A DNA stretch of 64,000 nt from Oscillospiraceae bacterium. GTDB lineage: Bacteria; Bacillota; Clostridia; Oscillospirales; Oscillospiraceae. Positions 38,459-54,189 of this stretch are shown piece after piece. Below the pieces are notes generated by a model. The model saw nothing but the letters and a program-made list of their open reading frames with translations. It did not search any database and was not told the origin of the DNA. The stretch lies in contig SVMM01000006.1 in the NCBI GenBank assembly GCA_015067435.1, forward strand, positions 124,001 to 188,000, read 5' to 3'. The first letter of the stretch is position 1. Each line of letters begins with the position of its first letter. A program made the position numbers and the translations under genes.

Positions 38459-38914
38459 ATGAGTGATGTAATGACAGTGGCGCAGCGAAGCCAAAATATG
38501 AAAAACATTCACAGCAAAGGGACCAGCATCGAAATACTTCTGTGCAAAGCGCTTTGGAGCAAAGGGTATCGATACAGGAAAAATTACAGGAAATTGCCAG
38601 GAGCACCAGACATCGCAATCACAAAATACCGTATAGCAGTTTTCTGCGATAGTGAGTTTTTTCATGGATATAACTGGGAAGTCAAAAAGCAAAAACTTGG
38701 AAACAATCGAGACTATTGGATTAAAAAAATTGAGCGAAACAAGGAACGCGATCATGAAAACGATTTGAAACTAATTGCAATGGATTGGATACCTATTCAC
38801 TTTTGGGGAGAGGAAATAGAGAAGCACTTAGGCCAATGTGTTTCAGCCATCGAAGACCTAATACTTGAGATAAAAATGATGCAAGTGGGTGACATCAACG
38901 ATAATATCGACTAA
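38459..38914 (+). CDS. vsr: Very short patch repair (Vsr) endonuclease
   Basis: The 151-residue Vsr-family nuclease nicks beside T in the T:G mismatches left when 5-methylcytosine deaminates. The family pattern is clear: RSQNMKNIHSKGTSIEILLC, then YRKLPGAPDIAITKYRIAVF with the catalytic Asp, then GYNWEVKKQKLGNNRDYWIK. E. coli Vsr has WHGH where this has FFHGYNW, so the zinc or metal details may differ. I use ATG 38459 after GGGAG. It is convergent with the C5 methyltransferase, the expected partner. Confidence 0.9.
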   Translation: MSDVMTVAQRSQNMKNIHSKGTSIEILLCKALWSKGYRYRKNYRKLPGAPDIAITKYRIAVFCDSEFFHGYNWEVKKQKLGNNRDYWIKKIERNKERDHENDLKLIAMDWIPIHFWGEEIEKHLGQCVSAIEDLILEIKMMQVGDINDNID

Positions 38915-38941
38915 AGTGCATAGGATACCACAGGAAGAACG

Positions 38942-40273
38942 CTAAGCAATATTTTCACAGGATTTTTTTTCATAATTAGTTTTGGATTTCAGAAATCCAT
39001 ACATTGTTTTTGCGATTCCTTGCGAAAGCATATATGGCACACCGTTACCGATTGTTTTGAACTTATCCGTGAGTGTCATGTCGGGAGGAAGTTGAAATTC
39101 TTTCGGTAATGATTGTATGGCTAATGCTTCGGCGACTGACAATCGCCGTACCTCATATGGATGTAGGTGGACCTCATTATTGCCATATGCAGCGGTAGGT
39201 GAGTATCTCCAACGGTGTGGGCGCTTATAGCACTTTCTGCTAACATCACCTTCCATGACTGTTTTCATCCGGGCAATTCCAGCCTGCGGCTGAAAATACT
39301 CGCTGGCATTCGGATGTGAAGATACGCAGTTTTTTTCAAACCAATATTCAATAGTAAGATTTTTGAGAAGACCTTCAGGGCATTCGGTTTTGCTACCTTC
39401 GGAGAAGTTGTTCGTATCCGGCCAAGGCAATTGCTTGATTTCCTCCAGATTGTACTTCTGATATTCAGTCCAAGGGAAATTGTCTACTATTTTTTTGCTA
39501 TCTACAAGAGAAGATTTTACACCGAACAATAGAATCCGGTCCCTGTCTTGAGCTGCACCGTATTCCAATGCATTTGTTAGACGTTCCGACATATAGTATT
39601 TTGCCTTGCGTAGCTGCCTCTTTAGCTTCTCATAAAACGCTCTATGTCGTGCTGTTTTCCACAACCCCTTCACATTTTCAAATAGGAAGAAGTCCGGTTG
39701 CTGGGCAATGATGAGATCCACATATGACTGGGATAATTTGCCATTTTCTCCTTTGCTTCCTCTATTTTTCCCCGCGACTGAAAAGTCCGGACACGGTGGT
39801 CCGCCTATGAATCCGACCAAGCTTCCGCTTTTTCTTGCGTCAGCGATATATGAAGCAAGAGTTTCTTTTTCTGTTGAAAGGAAATCGTTTATATCGCCGT
39901 TGTAGTAACCGTATTGTGGTTCTTGAATTTCCATCTTCTCTCTCGAATACTCATATGCATCGAGAAAGGGCTTGTAGTATTCATTTACAAACGAGATCTC
40001 GAAATTGGAAGTTTCGAATCCGAGATCGAGAAAACCGCACCCCGAGAAGAACGAGAATACTTTTGGACGGAAAGAAGGCGTTTCGGCTTCTCTTTTTATG
40101 TATTTCCCCGTTTTGATCCGCGCGTCATCAGGCTTCTCGAGATCGGAGGGGATGGCCCATTGACGCCCAAATTTCTGAGCACCAGCAAGCCTCCCTTCGG
40201 AACAAAGCACCTGGATACGCCGTTCTGTTATGCCCCATTTTTGCGAGGCCTCCTGAATAGTCATAGAATCCAT
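38942..40273 (-). CDS. DNA (cytosine-5) methyltransferase with N-terminal HTH
   Basis: This is a 443-residue methyltransferase. Residues 1-65 form a MerR/excisionase-like HTH (TIQEASQKWGITERRIQVLC). The catalytic domain begins at FSFFSGCGFLDLGFE (SAM motif I). It continues with GFIGGPPCPDFSVAGK (nucleophile Cys in Pro-Cys), FLFENVKGLW (motif VI), GAAQDRDRILLFG (Gln-x-Arg-x-Arg), and the ending KTIGNGVPYMLSQGI (motif X). It should protect host DNA from the neighbouring restriction enzyme. Its own promoter and a dyad over the ribosome site suggest the HTH controls its own synthesis. The start is ATG 40273, 8 nt after AGGAGG. Confidence 0.93.
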   Translation of the reverse strand: MDSMTIQEASQKWGITERRIQVLCSEGRLAGAQKFGRQWAIPSDLEKPDDARIKTGKYIKREAETPSFRPKVFSFFSGCGFLDLGFETSNFEISFVNEYYKPFLDAYEYSREKMEIQEPQYGYYNGDINDFLSTEKETLASYIADARKSGSLVGFIGGPPCPDFSVAGKNRGSKGENGKLSQSYVDLIIAQQPDFFLFENVKGLWKTARHRAFYEKLKRQLRKAKYYMSERLTNALEYGAAQDRDRILLFGVKSSLVDSKKIVDNFPWTEYQKYNLEEIKQLPWPDTNNFSEGSKTECPEGLLKNLTIEYWFEKNCVSSHPNASEYFQPQAGIARMKTVMEGDVSRKCYKRPHRWRYSPTAAYGNNEVHLHPYEVRRLSVAEALAIQSLPKEFQLPPDMTLTDKFKTIGNGVPYMLSQGIAKTMYGFLKSKTNYEKKSCENIA

Positions 40274-40281
40274 TTTGCGTT

Positions 40282-40325
40282 CCTCCTGTTAGGAGGATTA
40301 TATACCGCTGGCCGAATAAAGTCAA
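40282..40325 (-). promoter_or_regulatory. Methyltransferase promoter with dyad over start and SD
   Basis: TTGACT (40320-40325) and TATAAT (40297-40302) are 17 bp apart on the minus strand. Touching the -10 is a perfect inverted repeat, CCTCCT-AAC-AGGAGG (40282-40296), whose right half is the ribosome site. It could be the operator for the enzyme's own HTH, or a hairpin hiding the ribosome site. Confidence 0.75.
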
Positions 40326-40329
40326 TTAT

Positions 40330-40367
40330 AATAACAGGGTTCCGATAAATTGTGGAACCCTGTTATT
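40330..40367 (-). terminator. Terminator-like hairpin after the restriction gene
   Basis: A 14-bp perfect stem (40330-40343 with 40354-40367, arm AATAACAGGGTTCC) lies 10 nt after the restriction gene's stop. The run after it is A/T-rich but not a clean U tract. It separates that operon from the methyltransferase promoter. Confidence 0.75.
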
Positions 40368-40376
40368 TGTATAACA

Positions 40377-41372
40377 CTATGAAATAGGTGGGGTAATTAT
40401 CGAGGAATATAGCTGCTTAACGTCGTTTTGAGATAAACACTCAAAAAGTTTGTCTACAGCCCATGTTTTTGGGAGAGACGGACTGGTCAAGCAAGCGACC
40501 ATGGCAGCATCCAACGATTTTCTATCGCCAGGCGAAACAATGCTGAAAGAAATAGCATAGTACATATTGTGAAGAATATTGTATTGCAACATGGTATCGC
40601 AAGCGTTTCTTTCATTGATAAGATATAAAAGAATGGTCTTGACATTGTTTCCTTCATGAAGAAACTGTAACCTACGGTCAGGCTTTAGAGAATCTTTGAC
40701 AGATAAAAAGCAGTGGAGATTTTTTCTCGGCGCTACTGTACGTTTCAAGTGGTCAAATACTTTTTCGAGTTTTTCCTGCGTATCCAAGGATAAATCCTTG
40801 ATATCTTCGCACGGATTCAACGGAATGCTTGCACAAAGGCTGTCAAATTTTTTTCGGCTATACTTGAAAATAGCTACATCAGGGTTGCTGGAATTTAAAA
40901 GGAATGATTCGTGGCCAGAAATGCGCACTTCCTCATCATCTGCCGAAGTGCGGTCAAATGCTCTTATGACTTTTCCGTGTTTGTCGTCAAGAGCGGCGGT
41001 CCATTTTGTTTTATCGTTCTTGTTGTTTGGCAGCTTAACAAAAATATAAATTGGACCACCGGATTCGTAATTGGATCTATTTATTTCGGCAAGCTCATTC
41101 CATGAGTATGCCGCAAATATGAACTCCGACCAACCTCCGCGGCAATTGTTGAACGCATTCTGGTGAGGTTCCTTGATCTTAATGCCCATCTGCTTTTCTT
41201 TTTCCCTAATTTGGTCTTTTGTATAATCTTCAAGTTCCTTTAGGACATCAAGAAAACTTGCTGGGGCGGGAACGCTACTTGAAAAACGATCGGCAAGGAC
41301 TTCCTTTAGCGGAACAGTAGCCGTATTTCCGCTTTTCTTGATCTTGATCGCGTCTTGAGTAAGGCTTCCCAT
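40377..41372 (-). CDS. Probable type II restriction endonuclease (Cfr10I/Bse634I-like)
   Basis: The 331-residue protein has a PD-x60-K-x13-E arrangement. The Pro-Asp is in NSSNPDVAIFKY near residue 164, the Lys in HCFLSVKDSLKPDRRLQFLH near 227, and the Glu follows in HEG. Cfr10I and Bse634I use PD-x(about 55)-K-x13-E, so the spacing fits that CCGG-cutting group. Its place beside a C5 methyltransferase and Vsr supports a restriction role. The recognition site (perhaps with a CCGG core) is inference. It follows the 41396 gene by 23 nt in the operon started by the GHKL ATPase. Confidence 0.68.
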   Translation of the reverse strand: MGSLTQDAIKIKKSGNTATVPLKEVLADRFSSSVPAPASFLDVLKELEDYTKDQIREKEKQMGIKIKEPHQNAFNNCRGGWSEFIFAAYSWNELAEINRSNYESGGPIYIFVKLPNNKNDKTKWTAALDDKHGKVIRAFDRTSADDEEVRISGHESFLLNSSNPDVAIFKYSRKKFDSLCASIPLNPCEDIKDLSLDTQEKLEKVFDHLKRTVAPRKNLHCFLSVKDSLKPDRRLQFLHEGNNVKTILLYLINERNACDTMLQYNILHNMYYAISFSIVSPGDRKSLDAAMVACLTSPSLPKTWAVDKLFECLSQNDVKQLYSSIITPPIS

Positions 41373-41395
41373 GGCCTATCCCTCCTATGGTCGTA

Positions 41396-42100
41396 TTATT
41401 TTCTGATAAGGATTTGAGCATTTGCATTACTAATTGCATAGTATTCTTTTCCACATAAAGTGACAAGCTGTTCCGAAAAAACCGAAGAAGCGGTCAGTAC
41501 TGTGTAGCTCCCAACAGAAAGATTTGTCCGAACTGAAGAAACAACAAGAATTCTAAATGTGACCGTTTCAATTAAGTATACGCCTTGTTCAACGGGCGAA
41601 ACCTTGCCCCCAAATGCGTTTTGTAGAGCGCTAATTGTGTCACCAACATTTGAAGTGACAATAACCAAGCTTGTTTCGCCGCGTATTGAGGAGGTGGTGG
41701 ATTTCTTACTTAATTCTGCAGCAAATACTGGATCCATCTGCTTAAGAGTTCCGTATGCATGAGTAACATTGCCAACAAAGGCAATGTGCTTTTTGTTATT
41801 AATTCGGAGCCATTCAATGTAAGGAAGGTTTGCGAATATGGTTTCAGGCTGATTGCGGCTGGTTCCGCTGCCGTGCAATACACCCTCGACGTGGACTGCG
41901 GGTGAGCGGTTTAGTTCATCCCAAATAGTTTCAAGCTCACCGAACGGACGGCTCTTTGTTTGCCCTTTTGAGGTTTTTATTAAAAGATTGGAATGCTCTC
42001 TATCTACATTGAGAATTGTAAGTGAGGCCCCGGGGCGGATACTTTGCAACTCTAGTCCGACAAGCTTTTCTATGTCTTGAATTACATCATCAAAAGTCAT
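41396..42100 (-). CDS. Unknown protein within the restriction operon
   Basis: The 234-residue protein is not recognised. The N-terminus (TFDDVIQDIEKLVGLELQSI) looks like a small helical plus strand domain, and the middle is alpha-beta (LVIVTSNVGDTISALQNAFG). No nuclease or ATPase motif is seen. It overlaps the helicase stop by ATGA, so it is made with that protein and is probably a fixed component of the system, perhaps a specificity or adaptor subunit. Confidence 0.65.
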   Translation of the reverse strand: MTFDDVIQDIEKLVGLELQSIRPGASLTILNVDREHSNLLIKTSKGQTKSRPFGELETIWDELNRSPAVHVEGVLHGSGTSRNQPETIFANLPYIEWLRINNKKHIAFVGNVTHAYGTLKQMDPVFAAELSKKSTTSSIRGETSLVIVTSNVGDTISALQNAFGGKVSPVEQGVYLIETVTFRILVVSSVRTNLSVGSYTVLTASSVFSEQLVTLCGKEYYAISNANAQILIRK

Positions 42101-43842
42101 ACTTTACCTCCTGGCAAAAGCGGAGGAAACTTCAAAATGCTTGCATCCTCATCGCTGTTTTCGATGGCGACCACATCATCCAGCCATTGCCGCAAAAATG
42201 TTTCGGACTGCGGGTCCTCCCCACCAACTTTCATAAATGTTACTTTATTTGGAAGATCAATTCTGGTAGAGCCTTTTTCGGCTGGTTCCAACGAATCCTT
42301 TAGGCTTATGCCGGCAGCAAATCGCCGAATATCCGAAACAAAATCAAGAACAATTACCTTGTCCTTTCCTTCCGATACACGCAGGCCGCGCCCTAACTGC
42401 TGAATGAAGATTCGCCTCGAGTGTGTAACGCGTTGAAAAACAAGAATATTGACATCAGGAACATCAATGCCCTCATTAAAAATATCTACAGCGCATATTA
42501 CATTGATTGAGCCGTCAGAAAACTCGCTTAAAATCCGATTTCTCTGGTACTGGGATAGCGGTTCATATCCTTCACCAGAAGAGCCCGCATAGATTGCTTC
42601 TGCGTGGCAGAAACCCAGAGAGTTGATCTTGTTCCGCATAATGATTGCATGCTCGATAGTTCCGCAAAAAACAATGGCGCGGGGGCTGACTTGCTCTTGC
42701 CATGCATCTCTAAGCATATAGACAACCGAATCATCCCACTGGTTAATAAACAAGGTCTTATTAATCTGCTTGGGTGAAAAACTTTTCCCTTGAATACTTT
42801 TTAGCGATTCCCAGTTGATATTGTCGGTAAACATCCGATAGTCTACATTAGCGAGAAAACCATTCTTTAGTCCCATCACCATGTCGATACTAACGCGAGG
42901 GAAACCGAAATAATCGGTCAAATCAGTTTCATCTGGTCTCCACGGCGTTGCGGTTAACCCGAGAGCAAATGCTCCGCCAGGATTTCCGGCATTTAAAGAA
43001 TGAAAAACCCGGTTGTACATTGAGGAACCGACATGGTGGCATTCATCGATAAGAAGAATGCCAAAATCAGGCAGATCATGTCCAGCTTGGATCCATGCGG
43101 AAACAGAATCAACGCATGCAAACACAAAATCCGCTCGATCAAGTTGTTCCAAAGAAGGGCGTTCATAAGCGTTCCAGATTAACGTTGTTTCTGACGGTTT
43201 AAGAAATGGCCAGAAAGCTCGCTCAAGCTGATAAACCAAATCATTTGTATGAGCACAGACGAGAACCTGGCGCTTTGCATTTTGCCGAATACGCCTAACG
43301 CTTTCTGCAGCAACAAAAGTTTTTCCGAGTCCGGTGGCCATTACAATTAGAGCTCTGTTTTCGCCATTGCTGTAATAGGCATTTACAACCTCATTAATCG
43401 CTGGCTCTTGATATGGTCGAACAGGGCGATTGTTTGTGTGCTTGTCAGGAAGACGTTTCGCGTGGTTAATAAGTGTAGCAGAATCCCATAATTGAAGTGG
43501 TATGCCACTGGCATGAAGCACTTTCTGATGTTCAATAACGGCCGTTTCAAATCCGTTAGCTGATACAATTACCGGGACAGCAGCAGAATACTCGTAGGCA
43601 GCGTCTATGGTTTCTTTAACAACAGACGCACCAATCGGCTTTTTCCAATGTTTTGCTTGAAATAGCCACCGTTTGTTTCCGTTGGGGGTAACCTTTGTGG
43701 CTGTAACATCGGCGCCGTGATCCCCGGTTTGACCAACAAGCCTAACATTCTGAAAGCCCTCGTATGTGAGGAGGCGACAGAGGTTCCGCTCAAATGCTTG
43801 CCAAGTGTCGTTTATGATTTGATATTGGCTTTCAAAGATCAT
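42097..43842 (-). CDS. Mrr-type nuclease fused to superfamily II helicase
   Basis: The 581-residue protein begins with a restriction-endonuclease-like (Mrr) domain at about 10-110: FERNLCRLLTYEGFQNVRLV, GDHGADVTATKV with the catalytic Asp, and WLFQAKHWK giving Gln-x-Lys. A DEAD-like helicase follows: IVMATGLGKTFVAAE (Walker A) near 175, ILLIDECHHVGSSMY (DECH) near 270, GLTATPWR (motif III), and HSRRIFIQQLGRGLRVSEG (motif VI). It should translocate on DNA and cut. It overlaps the GHKL ATPase stop by ATGA. Both nuclease and ATPase residues appear intact. Confidence 0.88.
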   Translation of the reverse strand: MIFESQYQIINDTWQAFERNLCRLLTYEGFQNVRLVGQTGDHGADVTATKVTPNGNKRWLFQAKHWKKPIGASVVKETIDAAYEYSAAVPVIVSANGFETAVIEHQKVLHASGIPLQLWDSATLINHAKRLPDKHTNNRPVRPYQEPAINEVVNAYYSNGENRALIVMATGLGKTFVAAESVRRIRQNAKRQVLVCAHTNDLVYQLERAFWPFLKPSETTLIWNAYERPSLEQLDRADFVFACVDSVSAWIQAGHDLPDFGILLIDECHHVGSSMYNRVFHSLNAGNPGGAFALGLTATPWRPDETDLTDYFGFPRVSIDMVMGLKNGFLANVDYRMFTDNINWESLKSIQGKSFSPKQINKTLFINQWDDSVVYMLRDAWQEQVSPRAIVFCGTIEHAIIMRNKINSLGFCHAEAIYAGSSGEGYEPLSQYQRNRILSEFSDGSINVICAVDIFNEGIDVPDVNILVFQRVTHSRRIFIQQLGRGLRVSEGKDKVIVLDFVSDIRRFAAGISLKDSLEPAEKGSTRIDLPNKVTFMKVGGEDPQSETFLRQWLDDVVAIENSDEDASILKFPPLLPGGKV

Positions 43843-46373
43843 ACCGACATTTCCTTCCTCAGAAACTGAACAGATAGTCTAACGCTTTCCAACGTAAGCA
43901 TATCAGAATAACGATTTTCAGAAAAGATGACTAGATTCTTGAGATGATTACCATATTGGCTGATTATTTTTTCTTTTGCTTGAGCAACAGCTTCGGCGCC
44001 CAAGAGATCTTCGCCACCGCTGGCCAATGTCGTTTGCCAAACACGGCCGCCGAAGAAAGCGTTTGGATCTTCATTATACAGTTTCAATAGAAATGAAAAA
44101 GGAGCAAAGAGAATATAGCCACCTGAATTACGCAGCTCTCCAATGGCAGACAGGTCGATGCCATTTTGGATCAACGCATTGGTCATTAACTTCTTTTCCT
44201 CTATTGTGAGTTCATCAAAATAGAGCTGCGCATCTTCTCCGATACTGTCGCGGAGCTTTACCTGAACATCGTGGAGAAGGTCGGCCGTATCTTTGTAAAT
44301 TGCATCAAAATCAATTTCTACAGATTCTTTCCAATAAGATTGCAGTACAGACCACGTCAAATTGCTGAGATTATGTTCAGAATAAGTTGCAAGATTCATT
44401 CGTTCCTGGTATATGTACATTGCGATCTCACCGGCAATCAACTGTTCGCGGGACAAGCTGCATTTAGTAAAAAAAGGATGAGAATTATCAATAAAAATTG
44501 CAAGGGATCCAATTTCCTTGTGAATAACCAGCGGCTCTGTTGTTGTAGTTCCAGGAACAGTCATTGGGCTGTGCGTAGAATAGACGGCAACTCGAAGGGG
44601 ATTGCTTGTGCTTCCGTCGGCAAGGCGAATACTCAATCCATCGATAGACAAGGAGTCGACCTTATCAGAGTGAGCGAGCAACTCCTCTTTAGACAGAGGG
44701 TGATTGGCGCCTCTGGGGCTGTGGCAGCATTTGCAATAATCGTCAGTTGCAACGTTTTTCGTCCTGCAAACCTTGCAGATCCATGGCTCAAAAATGACGG
44801 GTGTTTGATTGACACCGCAGTGCGGACACGTTGTGGCTGATAGAGGAATCGTCTTGCCGCACAGATCGTTAACGCATTTCTTACCTTTTAGAATTTCGCC
44901 ACATCCAACGCATACTTCAGCTTCTTTAAGGTTTTGTGTACCACAATACGGACATTCGGGCAGTTCTTCGACCGGTGGCTGGTCAGCGGATTCAACAAGT
45001 TTCCACCATTCTGCGTCATCATAATAGCCGGGAAGCTTTTGCAGAAATTTCTTGTAGTATTCCTTTTCGATATCGCGGCTAATTCGCTTCGCACTGCGGC
45101 TATCTGCATCCCAGAAACCCATGTACATATCGCCTTTTCCAAAGTTCCGAACCCTTCTGTATGCTTGGTAGAGTTTGAAAAGAGGCGATGTGTTTTCGGA
45201 TGCACCGGGCTGTGAAGGTTGAAGGGAGCTGTTGCCGCGAATAAAGCTCATAGCTTCTTGCCACTCATTGCTACTGCGCTGAAAATCCTGTTTTAAAAAG
45301 TCTACCGGGACAAAATCAAGATGGATCTCTCCAACAATGCGGCCATATTGAGAGTCAATAGGATAATCTTTTATCGTGTGCTTGAACTCATCGACATACC
45401 AGAAAAATGCATCTTTTTCAGCTATTTTAATGGCTCGTCCATTTCTTATGAGATCAATGCCATACTCTGTATCAGAATCAAACCGCTGAATGCCAATCCA
45501 ACCTGTGACACGCTCTTCTATTGTTCTGATCGAAGAGGAACCGCAAGACGGGCAGGCAACTTCATCTCCTTGGAGAATTGCAGTGCATTTGCCGCACCGT
45601 TTGGAACTGCCGACCACTTGATCAAACCGCATAACGGCAGGAATGTTACCACCTTTACGCACTACATATCGGGAATCATCCCAAACGCAGTGCTCATACG
45701 GTTCACATTTCCCGTCATTGATAACGATGCGAATTTCGCCTTTGCGAAGGATAGATGCATATCTGCGCCCAATCTCCTCTCGGATTTTTGGCATACCATA
45801 CTGCACAAGCTTCTGAATAAATCCGTGGTTTGCATTTCCTTCAGGCCACCAATCTGTTACTTCGATAATTGTTCCGTGCGAATGATCAGTGAATGGCTCA
45901 CTATTGCCCTTTGCATATTCCATAGCATCGAGCGAATAGTTCTTTGAGGTGTTGATCTGCTCAAGATCTATAACAGTCTTAATATAAGTATCCATGTCCG
46001 CGCGGGCGGTCATAAATGTAGTGACGTTGCCAAGCTTGCCTGTTGATATATTGAATCCCATGCCAAATAAGCCGAGCGTGTCGTAAGGGTTGTTCCCAGA
46101 AAAACCGGCTTTGATTGCTTTTTCAGCATTTTCGGCGGTCATTCCAGGCCCGTTGTCTTGAATGCGGATAACACCGCTGCCATTTGCGAGCTGTTTTCTG
46201 GTGGGCAGAGTCACGATAACAATAGGGCTATCTATAGATATGCCTTGAATTTTTGCGCTGTAGAAGGAGTCAATAGCATTATCTATAAGCTCGCAGAGTG
46301 CATCTAGTGGCTGAATCGGAGTATGTGTGAGGGCAATAAGGACTTTTGGATCGGGCGTAAAGTCAAACTTCAT
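43839..46373 (-). CDS. MORC-like GHKL ATPase with zinc ribbons
   Basis: The 844-residue protein has an N-terminal GHKL ATPase: LDALCELIDNAIDSF (N box), IQDNGPGM (G1), and GLFGMGFNISTG (G2). This is the arrangement of MutL/Hsp90/MORC proteins. The middle and C-terminal half carry at least four Cys-x2-Cys ribbon pairs (CGKC/CPSCG, CPYCG/CVGCG, CVNDLCG/CPHCG, CKVC/CKCC). MORC-type ATPases linked to R-M genes were described by Iyer, Abhiman and Aravind. In such systems the ATPase probably acts as a DNA clamp working with the helicase. I use ATG 46373, 11 nt after AGGAGG. In-frame ATG 46382 is also possible. Confidence 0.87.
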   Translation of the reverse strand: MKFDFTPDPKVLIALTHTPIQPLDALCELIDNAIDSFYSAKIQGISIDSPIVIVTLPTRKQLANGSGVIRIQDNGPGMTAENAEKAIKAGFSGNNPYDTLGLFGMGFNISTGKLGNVTTFMTARADMDTYIKTVIDLEQINTSKNYSLDAMEYAKGNSEPFTDHSHGTIIEVTDWWPEGNANHGFIQKLVQYGMPKIREEIGRRYASILRKGEIRIVINDGKCEPYEHCVWDDSRYVVRKGGNIPAVMRFDQVVGSSKRCGKCTAILQGDEVACPSCGSSSIRTIEERVTGWIGIQRFDSDTEYGIDLIRNGRAIKIAEKDAFFWYVDEFKHTIKDYPIDSQYGRIVGEIHLDFVPVDFLKQDFQRSSNEWQEAMSFIRGNSSLQPSQPGASENTSPLFKLYQAYRRVRNFGKGDMYMGFWDADSRSAKRISRDIEKEYYKKFLQKLPGYYDDAEWWKLVESADQPPVEELPECPYCGTQNLKEAEVCVGCGEILKGKKCVNDLCGKTIPLSATTCPHCGVNQTPVIFEPWICKVCRTKNVATDDYCKCCHSPRGANHPLSKEELLAHSDKVDSLSIDGLSIRLADGSTSNPLRVAVYSTHSPMTVPGTTTTEPLVIHKEIGSLAIFIDNSHPFFTKCSLSREQLIAGEIAMYIYQERMNLATYSEHNLSNLTWSVLQSYWKESVEIDFDAIYKDTADLLHDVQVKLRDSIGEDAQLYFDELTIEEKKLMTNALIQNGIDLSAIGELRNSGGYILFAPFSFLLKLYNEDPNAFFGGRVWQTTLASGGEDLLGAEAVAQAKEKIISQYGNHLKNLVIFSENRYSDMLTLESVRLSVQFLRKEMSV

Positions 46374-47274: not shown

Positions 47275-47483
47275 TCAGCGACCTTCGTCCGAATGCAGAG
47301 AGACCACGGGCAGTCCCCGCTCCTTCGCGTATGCCATCGCGCGCCGCAGCGGGATCGTAAACGGCAAGGAGCATGTCGGCGTAGTCGATGATCTTGCAGT
47401 AGGCGTCATATTCGCACTCCGGCGTCTTGCGGTGGCTTGCCGCCTCCATAATGGTACAGTCCTCCAACAGCTTGAAGTACCGC
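47275..47483 (-). pseudogene. Broken SLOG/YpsA-like gene fragment
   Basis: The C-terminal half of the 53668-54189 protein recurs here: RYFKLLEDCTIMEAAS, CEYDAYCKIIDYADMLLAVY. A frameshift near 47340 then continues as MAYAKERGLPVVSLHSDEGR in another frame. The N-terminal half is missing, cut at about 47483 where relaxase-like sequence begins on the other strand. It is not functional. Confidence 0.8.
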
Positions 47484-48353: not shown

Positions 48354-50201
48354 ATGGGAATTCGTTTGGCTGAAATAAGGATTCAAAACTTCCGCTCAAT
48401 AGAATATGCAGAAGCCAAATTGAACGATACAAACATTTTGATTGGGCAAAACAATAGCGGAAAATCAAACTTTTTGAGAGCAATCAATATTGCGCTTAAT
48501 ACGAACCCATCAGTATCCGAACAAGACATTTATGTCGCAGAAGGTGAAAAGCTCACAAAAGATAAGACGAGCATAATAGACATAATGATTCGGCCTGTTT
48601 CTGAAACAAACGAATACGCCGACGAGTTTTCGGACTTTTGGACGGGCGTTTTTACCGACAAATGGATATCAACTGATGAAACCACGGGGGCATTCGTGGG
48701 CGTCAGGACGATAATTGAATATGACGCAAAATTTGATCAGTACACTTCAACGAAAAAAGCCATTACACAGTGGAATGATTCCATTGGAGATGCAATCTGT
48801 AGGAAAAAGCAAGGCTTTAACACCGATATGCAATCATATATTGAGTGCTTCTATATGGATGCACACAGAGATATTCTTGATGACCTAAATAACAAAAAGT
48901 CATATTTTGGCAGAGCAACATCCAACAAAGATATACCTGAAGCTGTCATTCAGGAAGTTGAAGAACAGTTGAATGTGATTAACGAAAAACTTGTAAACAA
49001 CACCCCTGCGCTAAAAAGCACACAAGAAACTATAGCTCAAATAAGCAATTTGTTCGGGCTTCAGGAGAGCAAGCTTGCAATTGAACCGATCAGTCGCTCT
49101 ATCAATGACTTGCACAGAGGCATGGATGTCAAATACAGCGATGGTAAAAGTCCAACGCTTTCTGTCTCTGAACAAGGCATGGGAACAAGAAGTTGGATAT
49201 CGTTTCTAACCCTTGGAGCTTATATCACCTATTTGACCAATACCATCAAGGCCGAAGATGATGAGTCTGAATTGTTTGTTGTGCTTGCACTGGAGGAACC
49301 TGAAGCACATCTTCACTCATATGCGCAAAAAAAACTGTTCGAGCAGATAAAGCAATTTCCAGGGCAAAAGAATATCAGCACACATTCAGCAAATATTGTA
49401 GCGCAGGCAGATATTGTTGATTTTTTACATCTATATAAATCCGAAGGAAAAACAATTGCCCACCGAGTTAAAATGGATTCATATGGAATTGAAGAACTGG
49501 CTAGAATAAAAAGAGAATTTATCAGGAGCAATGGCGAATTGCTATTTTCAACTGCGGTTGTATTGGCTGAGGGGATTACAGAAGAACTAGCTATTCCTGT
49601 TTATTTTAGAGAGTATTTTGGTGTTGATGCCAACTCTCTTGGAATTGCGATAATCGGAATAGGAGGACAGAATTATAAGTCATTTCTGCATCTTCTCAAC
49701 GACTTGACCATTCCGTGGTTTATTTTTAGTGATGGCGAGAAAAAAGCTCAGAAAACGGTTAATAACGCCGTTCAAGGTGTTTTTAGTAAAGACTTTCATG
49801 ATTTCAAAAACATCATAATGCTGGATGAAGGCGATGATTATGAGGACTATTTGTTGAAAGAAGGCTATTCTGACATTATCATAGATGCAATCAACAAATA
49901 CGAAGAAAAACTTCGCAAAGAAATTGACCCCGAAGGAGCCGAGCGAGATCCCAGACCATTCTTTGAACGGTATATCGAAAAAGGAATACGCGATGGAAAA
50001 AACTATTCCGGAGAAGAAGGAAAAAGTACCGCTCTTATTAATTGCTTGCAAAATAACAACGGAAAAGCAAAATATGCCTATGTAGTCGCCGATGAAATTG
50101 TGAGTAATGCAGAGAGTGAGAAAAAGGTTCCTCCCAAAATAGCTGTGTTATTTGAAAGAATAAAAGAATTCTTAGCTGGCGGTGATTTGATTGAGGATTA
50201 A
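48354..50201 (+). CDS. gajA: Gabija protein GajA: OLD-family ATPase-nuclease
   Basis: The 615-residue protein has an N-terminal ABC-type ATPase: LIGQNNSGKSNFLRA (Walker A, residues 32-46), VSEQGMGTRSW (signature) near 275, and LALEEPEAHLHSY (Walker B) near 315. A C-terminal TOPRIM nuclease follows (VVLAEGITEEL near 405, FSDGEKKA near 460). In Gabija, GajA is a tetrameric nicking nuclease held off by nucleotides and released when phage deplete them. It starts at ATG 48354 after AAGGAG. The last 11 bases overlap gajB. The A/T-rich composition suggests transfer. Confidence 0.87.
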   Translation: MGIRLAEIRIQNFRSIEYAEAKLNDTNILIGQNNSGKSNFLRAINIALNTNPSVSEQDIYVAEGEKLTKDKTSIIDIMIRPVSETNEYADEFSDFWTGVFTDKWISTDETTGAFVGVRTIIEYDAKFDQYTSTKKAITQWNDSIGDAICRKKQGFNTDMQSYIECFYMDAHRDILDDLNNKKSYFGRATSNKDIPEAVIQEVEEQLNVINEKLVNNTPALKSTQETIAQISNLFGLQESKLAIEPISRSINDLHRGMDVKYSDGKSPTLSVSEQGMGTRSWISFLTLGAYITYLTNTIKAEDDESELFVVLALEEPEAHLHSYAQKKLFEQIKQFPGQKNISTHSANIVAQADIVDFLHLYKSEGKTIAHRVKMDSYGIEELARIKREFIRSNGELLFSTAVVLAEGITEELAIPVYFREYFGVDANSLGIAIIGIGGQNYKSFLHLLNDLTIPWFIFSDGEKKAQKTVNNAVQGVFSKDFHDFKNIIMLDEGDDYEDYLLKEGYSDIIIDAINKYEEKLRKEIDPEGAERDPRPFFERYIEKGIRDGKNYSGEEGKSTALINCLQNNNGKAKYAYVVADEIVSNAESEKKVPPKIAVLFERIKEFLAGGDLIED

Positions 50202-51999
50202 TCTTTCTCCTAAACAAAATGAAATTGTGCAATTTGACTCTGGGGCGATTCTTGTTAAAGCCGGTCCGGGCAGCGGAAAGACAAGAGTATTGATTGAGCG
50301 AACAAAGCGACTGTTACTTTCCCACAAGCGGGTAAAAATTCTCGCCTTGACTTTTAGCAATATGGCAGCCGAAGAAATGCGAACGCGACTCCAAGAAGAT
50401 AAAGATGTTGAAGACTCTATCGATAGGGTAACAATTGGGACAATTCATTCTTTTTGCCTTGAGCTAGTTCAGACAAGAGGACACCTGATTGGCCTTCCAA
50501 GCAATCTAACCCTATTTGAAAGCCTTGATGATAGAAAAAAAGTGCTGGCTGATGCCATGCAAAAAAATCCATCTCTAAAAGAAACGCTTCAGCAGCAAAG
50601 TAAGCAGAACTCATATCTCACTAATTGCCTATCATTAATTGCTGATTATAAGAAAAAATTTATTCTTCCTGATGATGGCACCATTGGTGAGGCAAACGCT
50701 CTGGTTTATTATGCATACAATCAAGAACTGCTATCGCAATCCGCTATTGATTTTGATGATATTTTGCTGTACGCATACCGAATACTGACCGAATATGAGA
50801 GTGTAGCTCGACTTTTTACAACTCAATACAAGTATATTTGCGTTGACGAAGCGCAAGACTTGAACTATGCGCAATATGAGGTAATAAAAGCGTTATGTGG
50901 TGCATCGTTTAACAATATTATGTTGGTTGGAGACGAGAACCAATCAATTTATGGCTTTAACGGCTCAGATAGTACTCTGATGAGCAAAGCATTTGTGAAA
51001 GACTTTTCTCCTGCGATATTTGTGCTGAACGAGAATTTTAGATGCTCCAAGGCTATAGTCAATTATGCAAACACGTTGGAGACATCAAATGATTTTCCCA
51101 ATTGCTATTATGAGGGGGAACTTCGTCTATTTCCATTCCAAACTGAGCAAGAAGAAGCTGACTTTATTATATCAAGAATTAACTTTCTTGTTCAGAATGG
51201 ACACCCTGATGTTGAACTACCAATAACGTATGACAATATTGCAATAATAGCCCGTAACAAGTATGTCTTTTCAGATATAGAGAAGGCACTAAGTAGCGAG
51301 AATATTCCGTTCTATTTCAGAAAAACAACAAATGGAATTGAATCCGAATCTTTAGTGTTCAAGATGCTCGATTTGGAACTGCGACTATTAGTGAATAGCA
51401 AGGACATAATCCATTCTCGTGAGTTGTCAACACTAAAAAATGATATACCGTTTGGGCAGGACTATTCCTTTTTGCATTCTATTGTGGTCAAAGCAAACCC
51501 GGATGATTTCAATTTGAAAGTGTTGCTAACAAAAATTGAAGCCCACATTCCATCGCTCTCGCTATCAGATGAAGAAAAATATATGGTGCTAAACGACTGT
51601 GATCTGTGGCGTAAACACTGGAGCAAATATATTGCGCAAGTTCCCTCAGAGCAGCGATCACTTTTATCGTTTAGAAACTATGTTTCTTTGGGAAAAACCC
51701 AAATAATTGATAGCACCTCTGGCGTAACATTACTAACCGCTCATATGTCGAAAGGCTTGCAATATGAGGTTGTATTTGTAGTTGGTCTTACAGAGGGAAC
51801 TTTTCCCGACTATCGTGCGGTACAATCTGGCGGAAAAGAGCTTGAACAAGAAAAAAACAATATGTATGTTGCCGTTACACGCGCAAAAAGATTGTGTTAT
51901 CTAACATATTCATTGCAAAAAAAGATGCCGTGGGGTGGCGTCAAGATGCAGCGGCCATCCCAGTTTGTTGCTGATTTGTTACCAAACACCTTTGAATAA
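50191..51999 (+). CDS. gajB: Gabija protein GajB: UvrD-like helicase
   Basis: The 602-residue superfamily I helicase has VKAGPGSGKTRVLIERTKRL (Walker A), ALTFSNMAAEEMRTRL (Ia), YICVDEAQDLNYAQYEVI (II), MLVGDENQSIYGFNGSD (III), LNENFRCS (IV), LLTAHMSKGLQYEVVFV (V) and NMYVAVTRAKRLCYLT (VI). GajB senses DNA ends made by GajA or phage and hydrolyses nucleotides. It starts with TTG 50191 inside gajA, with no other start possible without losing Walker A context. Many GajB proteins are about 500 residues, so this is at the long end. Confidence 0.87.
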   Translation: MRINLSPKQNEIVQFDSGAILVKAGPGSGKTRVLIERTKRLLLSHKRVKILALTFSNMAAEEMRTRLQEDKDVEDSIDRVTIGTIHSFCLELVQTRGHLIGLPSNLTLFESLDDRKKVLADAMQKNPSLKETLQQQSKQNSYLTNCLSLIADYKKKFILPDDGTIGEANALVYYAYNQELLSQSAIDFDDILLYAYRILTEYESVARLFTTQYKYICVDEAQDLNYAQYEVIKALCGASFNNIMLVGDENQSIYGFNGSDSTLMSKAFVKDFSPAIFVLNENFRCSKAIVNYANTLETSNDFPNCYYEGELRLFPFQTEQEEADFIISRINFLVQNGHPDVELPITYDNIAIIARNKYVFSDIEKALSSENIPFYFRKTTNGIESESLVFKMLDLELRLLVNSKDIIHSRELSTLKNDIPFGQDYSFLHSIVVKANPDDFNLKVLLTKIEAHIPSLSLSDEEKYMVLNDCDLWRKHWSKYIAQVPSEQRSLLSFRNYVSLGKTQIIDSTSGVTLLTAHMSKGLQYEVVFVVGLTEGTFPDYRAVQSGGKELEQEKNNMYVAVTRAKRLCYLTYSLQKKMPWGGVKMQRPSQFVADLLPNTFE

Positions 52000-53667: not shown

Positions 53668-54189
53668 TCAACGGTCTCTGATCGGCGGCAGGAACATCAC
53701 AGGTAGCCCCTGCTCCCTTGCATACTCCATCGCCCTATCCACGGTGTCGCCGCGCGCTGTGGCAGGATCGTAGGCAGCAAGCACCATGTCGGCATAGTCG
53801 ATGATCTTGCGGTAGGCATCGTATTCGCACTCCGGCGTCCGGCGCGGACTTGCCGCTTCCATGATGGTGCAGTCCTCCAGCAGCTTGAAATAGCGATCCC
53901 GAAGATACGGCGCCCACTTCGTCGCCTGCTCTTCGTGCGGCGTCACGACAAAGAGCATGAGATCCGGGTCGGTCTGCCGCAGGGCGTTGACGCACTCGCC
54001 GGCATACAGGCCGACGCCGCAGTCCGCGACGACGGCAAACCGCGTCACGCCCTGTTGCCGCAACTCCATGATCTTCTGCGCCAGTTCCATCTTGAGATTC
54101 TGACAATCGCGGTCCTCTTCGTCAAAGCCCCAAGGAAAACGCATCGGGGGCTGGCCGAGGACGGCGCAAGTGAGGTGTTCGCTTTCCAT
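53668..54189 (-). CDS. SLOG/YpsA-like (DUF1273) protein
   Basis: The 173-residue Rossmann-like protein has VVADCGVGLYAGECVNAL, then CEYDAYRKIIDYADMVLAAY and GLPVMFLPPI. The layout matches YpsA/DUF1273 proteins of the SLOG superfamily, thought to bind nucleotides or their derivatives. It starts at ATG 54189, 8 nt after AAAGG. It is divergent from the Xre gene across a TTAACCCTTTT inverted repeat. A damaged copy lies at 47275-47483. Confidence 0.78.
   Translation of the reverse strand: MESEHLTCAVLGQPPMRFPWGFDEEDRDCQNLKMELAQKIMELRQQGVTRFAVVADCGVGLYAGECVNALRQTDPDLMLFVVTPHEEQATKWAPYLRDRYFKLLEDCTIMEAASPRRTPECEYDAYRKIIDYADMVLAAYDPATARGDTVDRAMEYAREQGLPVMFLPPIRDR

Follow-up and report, generated by a model that had tools for sequence, protein, structure and literature searches.

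The window analysed here, 64,000 nucleotides (nt) of contig SVMM01000006.1 from an Oscillospiraceae bacterium, holds at positions 38459 to 46373 a block of six genes encoding a Vsr endonuclease, a C5-cytosine DNA methyltransferase, a Cfr10I-like restriction endonuclease, a protein here called X, a nuclease-helicase and a MORC-type ATPase (coordinates of the block are positions within the window). We propose that the six genes form a methyl-guarded restriction system in which two effectors share one methylase and X would read the unmethylated site through its N-terminal domain, XN, an explanation that we consider probable, albeit with some reserve. It builds on the gene set and its co-conservation, on the conserved motor and Mrr sites, on the exchange of the gene that follows the helicase, and on the occurrence of XN in four effector contexts that are tied to one methylase clade. 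New here are X as a putative reader subunit and its mobility between effectors, both of which appear undescribed in the open-licence PubMed Central (PMC) literature searched. The six genes had been predicted at these places from the sequence alone; clear family matches were obtained for five of them and none for X.

Conservation of the MORC-helicase pair and exchange of the third gene

When the ATPase was searched against 398 genomes of the phylum at E values up to 1e-20, five genomes matched, the window's own included. Scanning a species-genome collection with an eight-row MORC alignment yielded 303 relatives, the best 80 of which were kept, and the counts given below rest on these; 54 of the 80 have at least 5 kb before and at least 7 kb after the gene and are referred to as long-flank loci. 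The claim of the original prediction that the genes form one co-conserved block is borne out by these relatives. In locus L015 (genome G533, from another family of the same phylum) the methylase, MORC, helicase, X and Cfr10I-like genes stand consecutively, with identities to the window of 43%, 52%, 60%, 46% and 28%, respectively, a gene row that is more than chance. The order MORC-helicase-X-Cfr10I is that of the window, the methylase being placed before MORC and not after the restriction gene. A Cfr10I-type gene is also found in L025, L044 and L109.

Evidence against such a block had been specified in advance as homologous loci whose ATPase/helicase pair never goes with restriction or methylase genes; instead, each of the 54 long-flank loci has a C5 methylase no more than 8 kb from MORC. 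The helicase directly follows MORC in 51 of them (the MORC frame of L087 and of L103 seems to be broken, and in L073 no helicase was found), and a Vsr gene is present in 39. Over all 80 kept loci the corresponding numbers are 75 for the methylase, 70 for the helicase and 50 for Vsr, the five loci without a methylase lying on contigs that break off at the gene or shortly beyond it. For comparison, 65 places matching the methylase family were counted in 40 kin genomes (~88 Mb), so that about 0.014 methylases are expected per span, a rough yardstick, since these genomes are kin of the window and not of the 80 loci and some of the places are two pieces of one gene.

The Vsr of the window (38459-38914, plus strand; TIGR00632 122.6 bits at a cut-off of 97.85, PF03852 91.9 bits) belongs to the T:G mismatch nicking endonucleases that repair deaminated 5-methylcytosine (5mC). 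In some relatives it may be replaced by an HhH-GPD glycosylase, which occurs in 2 of the 54 long-flank loci and never together with Vsr. Such glycosylase genes were seen in the MORC restriction-modification (R-M) loci L015 (11790-12698) and L110 (10760-11428), where the Pfam score lies over the cut-off, in L016, where it lies under it, and, by a purpose-made profile, in L060, L074, L103 and L109.

The MORC-type GHKL ATPase (43839-46373, minus strand; PF13589, HATPase_c_3, 44.2 bits) carries zinc ribbons and, at residues 305-315, the S5 motif GIDLIRNGRAI, which by eye corresponds to the published MORC motif GhXhhpXXRhl, in line with its earlier description as MORC-like. The nuclease-helicase (42097-43842, minus strand; Mrr_cat 63.7, ResIII 101.8 and Helicase_C 50.2 bits) consists of an Mrr-type nuclease domain (43465-43806; PF04471, 63.7 bits) and a superfamily 2 (SF2) helicase motor (42376-43422; PF04851, PF00271); the rad25 model reaches 44.8 bits on it, far under its cut-off of 328.7. 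Conservation was followed in an alignment of 76 rows, comprising the window and those loci, from the kept 80 and from separately gathered ones, that have both MORC and helicase. Mrr residues D45, Q62 and K64 and helicase residues K174, D266, E267 and R485 are invariant in all 76 rows, as are G305, R310 and R313 of the MORC motif, and E28 and N32 of MORC are present in 75, the remaining row having a gap. Hence, two ATPases and one nuclease have been kept throughout.

The gene right after the helicase, by contrast with this constancy, is exchanged. Among the 76 rows, window included, it is a 175-residue protein (Xp) in 36, a 190-residue protein (Xa) in 15 (counting L060, which the family profile did not find and which was assigned by position and size) and X in 12; the remaining third genes are MspI-related (4), members of a 372-residue group (4), MvaI/BcnI relatives (3), a Vsr (1) and one other. 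Forcing the X rows together on the MORC and helicase tree gave a p value of 5.8e-7 in the approximately unbiased test, so the 12 X rows do not form one clade, with the caveat that the group was known from an earlier tree and that X may be the ancestral state.

Several third genes resemble restriction enzymes that have lost their active site. All three MvaI/BcnI relatives (L070 with 155.9 bits in Pfam, the other two alike by BLAST) lack the D, E and K of the R.MvaI motif DIEIK, reading GIVLT, GIVVN and GMVLT. The 372-residue proteins lack, in 4 of 4 cases, an EFK motif retained by a cousin at the end of the L038 operon; EFK may be the active site by our own reading, which agrees with a weak REase_II match. 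A disarmed restriction enzyme thus appears to fill the third slot in seven rows. The third genes of L027 and L062 encode MspI enzymes extended by an additional N-terminal domain, which is all that fills the slot in L031; the MspI-type enzyme of L027 retains the aligned D and K. The family profile comparison gave no sign of a disarmed-enzyme origin for Xa and Xp.

Further observations were made around the slot. The nuclease-less and the EFK-bearing paralogues of L038 (14244-15365 and 17400-18539) lie in one operon, where they flank two C5 methylases. In two Paenibacillus loci a DruF-like protein with a DruL-like end directly follows X (L030 15072-17792, scanned; L032 15224-17968, its BLAST kin). 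Two divergently oriented C5 methylases of the same clade precede MORC in L030 (7505-9983), L032 (7501-9983) and L033 (199-2628), and no modelled restriction endonuclease was found in these loci. A PIN-like gene comes after the third gene in alphaproteobacteria (L019 15754-16833, L020 10473-11552), and a weak relative of it stands before MORC in the actinobacterial L047 (8188-9585).

The XN domain and one methylase clade

The proposed target-reading subunit X (41396-42100, minus strand) has zero matches to Pfam, PADLOC or NCBIfam models and remains, as had been predicted, the one unassigned subunit; its family comprises 12 members in MORC loci, window included, and four on viral contigs. According to the family alignments, conservation is found mainly in residues 1-137, termed XN (41690-42100), which contain the stretch GSG[ST]SRNQPET..ANLP and are predicted to form strands followed by three helices and two strands (predicted local distance difference test 90.0, predicted template modelling score 0.84). 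The C-terminal domain (residues 142-234; 41399-41677) weakly resembles the glyoxalase/VOC fold. Comparison of XN with the N-domain of the type II enzymes of PADLOC family PDLC03534 gave an hhalign E value of 8.5e-10, by which the two domains are judged to be homologous; in a pairwise comparison of 13 family profiles no further pair, X with XN apart, exceeded 20% probability. X is not itself a PDLC03534 member, since the profile match covers only its N-terminal part and its C-terminal part resembles another fold.

XN recurs in front of other effectors. On the viral contig L108 it is joined to an AAA motor (AAA_5), and RE_LlaJI (138.6 bits) and another C5 methylase come next; the fusion protein matches a PADLOC type II R subunit from residue 209 on, and XN occupies the place of the N-terminal half of a LlaJI R1-like subunit. 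The viral contig L111 carries XN together with GmrSD_N, and L112 is similar in sequence. In two Vibrio phage records (L119, L120) XN precedes Menshen NsnA, with NsnB and NsnC following, Menshen being called by PADLOC models for one record and by the record's own notes for the other. On the scanned fusions the NsnA model begins to match only at residue 222-237; XN is an addition in front of NsnA. These XN-Menshen genes and their methylase (L119 1368-6686, L120 2089-7233) adjoin the integrase gene of temperate Vibrio phages, one of which is filed in Peduoviridae. The XN profile found four of the 398 sampled genomes, namely two X loci together with L117 and L118. In the latter two, where the enzymes have 361-366 residues, and also in L029, a distant XN forms the N-terminal part of a PDLC03534 type II enzyme.

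The different effectors have a methylase in common. The window methylase (38942-40273, minus strand; PF00145, 162.7 bits) begins with a helix-turn-helix-like stretch that gives a weak HTH_17 match under the cut-off. In a tree of 106 methylases (290-619 residues) it belongs to a 27-row clade (support 99) made up of 25 methylases from XN loci and two from MORC loci truncated ahead of the third gene; long-flank loci lacking XN contribute no methylase to it. Within this clade an 11-row subclade (support 100) unites the MORC loci of the window, L044 and L024 with L108 of the LlaJI type, with L111, L112, L119 and L120 of the Menshen type, and with the type II enzyme loci L117, L118 and L029. Seen from the other side, 21 of 23 XN loci have a clade methylase; L025 has a different one, and the contig of L106 starts inside the helicase. 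The 16 clade members compared share the stretch EGD..[RK]K..KR.HR.R.SP..AYG.NEVHLHP before motif IX, which suggests one core target.

In a reverse test the 11 subclade methylases were used to search a viral collection, giving 39 loci, of which 37 were examined, L107 and L111 being XN loci already known. Of the 23 loci with at least 50% identity across the gene (L121-L143), 18 have XN or the distant form next to the methylase, or 16 of 21 if L122 and L124, which re-find the contigs of L108 and L112, are left aside. The type II form accounts for eleven of the 18, ten of them whole and one (L130) a fragment; one more is of the McrB type and six are of the Menshen type. Within the last group XN and NsnA are separate frames in L123, and the assignment of L124 and L143 draws on size and XN only. 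The other five have a Cfr10I-type enzyme (two) or an NsnA-like protein (three, two of them near-identical). L148 (50% over 131 residues) was excluded as its contig ends in the gene. At 27-36% identity none of ten viral loci has XN or the distant form adjacent, nor was XN adjacent in L146 (40%); L144 and L145, also under 50%, re-find L110 and L109.

The probable target follows from the company of the methylase. Three of its four plasmid relatives (Moraxella, Nostoc and Geobacillus pBsrF30, the last at 37% identity) have an annotated Cfr10I/Bse634I enzyme adjacent, the fourth record being unannotated. BsrFI and Cfr10I recognise RCCGGY. Hence, the methylase site is most likely of the CCGG-core type, RCCGGY. 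The window's own Cfr10I/Bse634I-type enzyme (40377-41372, minus strand) matches PF07832 with 92.1 bits at a cut-off of 27, which confirms the assignment made originally, and in the alignment to 1knv it retains NPD and the K..LKPDRRLQ..HEGN stretch of Bse634I, whose residues we take to be the catalytic ones.

Mechanism, alternatives and gene arrangement

In the explanation we favour, the C5 methylase would mark a CCGG-core site, likely RCCGGY, and thereby spare the host from both effectors, with Vsr mending the T:G mismatches left by decay of 5mC. The first effector, the Cfr10I-like endonuclease, would attack the same sites independently. The second would be a complex driven by ATP, in which X, the Mrr-helicase and the MORC ATPase act together: X would find the unmethylated site through XN, MORC would close on the DNA as a clamp and recruit or hold the helicase, and the helicase would travel along the DNA and cut with its Mrr domain. 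As the Mrr-helicase would do the cutting, the reader of this effector would have to be nuclease-free. We infer that XN binds DNA, which site is targeted, that a complex forms and in which order events proceed. Two precedents are combined in this scheme: in LlaJI the McrB-like R1 is the sole specificity subunit and methylated DNA is spared (PMC1459862), and human MORC2 uses ATP to clamp and compact DNA (PMC12216690).

A more general proposal, for which we see about as much room for as against, is that XN is a sequence-reading domain for one methylase family (probably RCCGGY) that has been plugged into at least four machines, i.e. MORC-helicase, McrBC/LlaJI, Menshen/GmrSD and, distantly, a plain type II nuclease, making machines that are modification-dependent or of unknown trigger self-sparing. 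The MORC-helicase line in general would then be aimed via a nuclease-free reader slot, filled more than once by a disarmed restriction enzyme. If true, this would explain how Menshen-type and McrBC-type effectors are aimed at unmethylated DNA and would provide a natural case of defence nucleases being aimed in a modular way. The working of prokaryotic MORC ATPases in these systems was a prediction in 2008 (PMC2292703), bacterial MORCs were still called poorly understood in 2021 (PMC8011034), and no target-reading subunit is assigned to prokaryotic MORC systems in the open-licence PMC literature searched; a separable reader makes the question of their action testable.

It is also conceivable, though unlikely, that X is an adaptor docking the type II enzyme on the MORC-helicase pair, so that the Cfr10I-like enzyme would read and cut first and the complex would then degrade or loop the DNA. 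The MspI enzymes with an extra N-terminal domain and the lone copy of that domain in L031 fit this idea, as do the 32 of 54 long-flank loci with a modelled restriction endonuclease and the looping from site to cut proposed in 2008 (PMC2292703). In the remaining 22, however, none of the seven modelled families was found, although unknown families may escape, and these loci are compatible with a MORC-helicase machine that restricts alone. Moreover, no MORC was found in the loci where XN is fused to the McrB-type motor, to NsnA or, in its distant form, to the nuclease, and the disarmed state of all three MvaI relatives fits a reader better than a docking arm.

In a second alternative, what XN detects is the methylase as such or the methylated site, and the effectors serve as safeguards should methylation be lost or become excessive, following type IV or toxin-like logic. 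Since a nuclease reading the methyl mark of its own operon would attack the host, and since the enzymes whose N-domain is the distant XN are classed as type II by PADLOC, we regard this as quite improbable, even though McrBC and GmrSD are known as modification-dependent and XN tracks the methylase clade. Least of all do we expect the block to be two unrelated defence-island neighbours, one a Cfr10I R-M system and the other a system of MORC and helicase, for although the family methylase and a Cfr10I enzyme occur with no MORC seen in L129, L138 and plasmids H9, H10 and H12, and a Gabija pair lies 2 kb from the block, such a coincidence is at odds with the constant presence of a methylase near MORC, with the identical X-Cfr10I order in L015 and with the Cfr10I-type genes of three further loci.

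Within the block, MORC and helicase overlap by 4 nt, as do helicase and X, and the Cfr10I-like gene follows X after 23 nt, which agrees with the predicted run of overlapping genes. Vsr lies on the opposite strand and faces the methylase. The methylase had been credited with its own promoter; a gap of 103 nt to the restriction gene and a promoter-like TTGACT-17-TATAAT (40297-40325, minus strand; 11/12 in a consensus scan) are indeed present, and as the region holds 17 such matches where 14.3 are expected, the match alone proves nothing on function. G+C content per 1-kb window is 43-46% from 36 to 46 kb, except for 53% at 37 kb, and 60-61% from 34 to 36 kb.

Beyond the block lies a complete-looking Gabija pair of 38-40% G+C, with GajA at 48354-50201 (PDLC00067, 580 bits) and GajB at 50191-51999 (PDLC00132, 700 bits). 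It is bracketed by 145-base direct copies that are 83% identical (47338-47482 and 53751-53895), and both ends encode the same piece of protein, which looks as though insertion of the pair had been accompanied by a gene duplication.

Comparison with known systems

The gene set had been suggested as a possibly distinct type, which finds no support in that form, since MORC-helicase R-M operons have been known since 2008. Iyer, Abhiman and Aravind (PMC2292703) reported operons of MORC, an SF2 helicase of a Rad25-like group with a fused restriction-endonuclease-fold nuclease, a cytosine methylase and Vsr, with T2ENDO named in a figure legend; like the window, these have a GHKL plus S5 ATPase with GhXhhpXXRhl. 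They differ in that X, a reader slot, its exchange and disarmed enzymes are not described in the portions of that text consulted. What is distinct in the window is X, the Cfr10I-like enzyme being one of several partners. Hma, too, combines a helicase and an m5C methylase with an ATPase, HmaC (PMC8565338); the window MORC matched no PADLOC model at E 0.01, in a copy whose inclusion of an HmaC model is not confirmed.

LlaJI shares with the window C5 methylases, a motor whose subunit sets the sequence, and restriction of unmethylated DNA, and differs in using a McrB/McrC-type machine on the site GACGC where the window has MORC and Mrr-helicase (PMC1459862); the Pfam matches of the six block genes include neither a McrB-like motor nor RE_LlaJI. 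XN is carried by one locus of the LlaJI type, L108. Menshen (NsnABC) is linked to the window by the fusion of XN to NsnA in some cases beside the same methylase clade, whereas its PADLOC NsnA model matches only after XN and the window block is without an NsnA gene, no NsnA, NsnB or NsnC being among the PADLOC matches listed for its proteins (25 of the methylase's 57, 25 of the helicase's 31 and all those of the other proteins). Cfr10I/Bse634I type II R-M systems resemble the window in combining a PF07832 endonuclease with a methylase of that family, whereas the three plasmid cases are without annotated MORC, helicase or X.

In type I R-M systems a separate specificity subunit, HsdS, serves an ATP-driven motor-nuclease. 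The window block would share this layout, with the difference that its methylation is carried out by an independent C5 enzyme, and kinship to HsdS was not seen in any family search.

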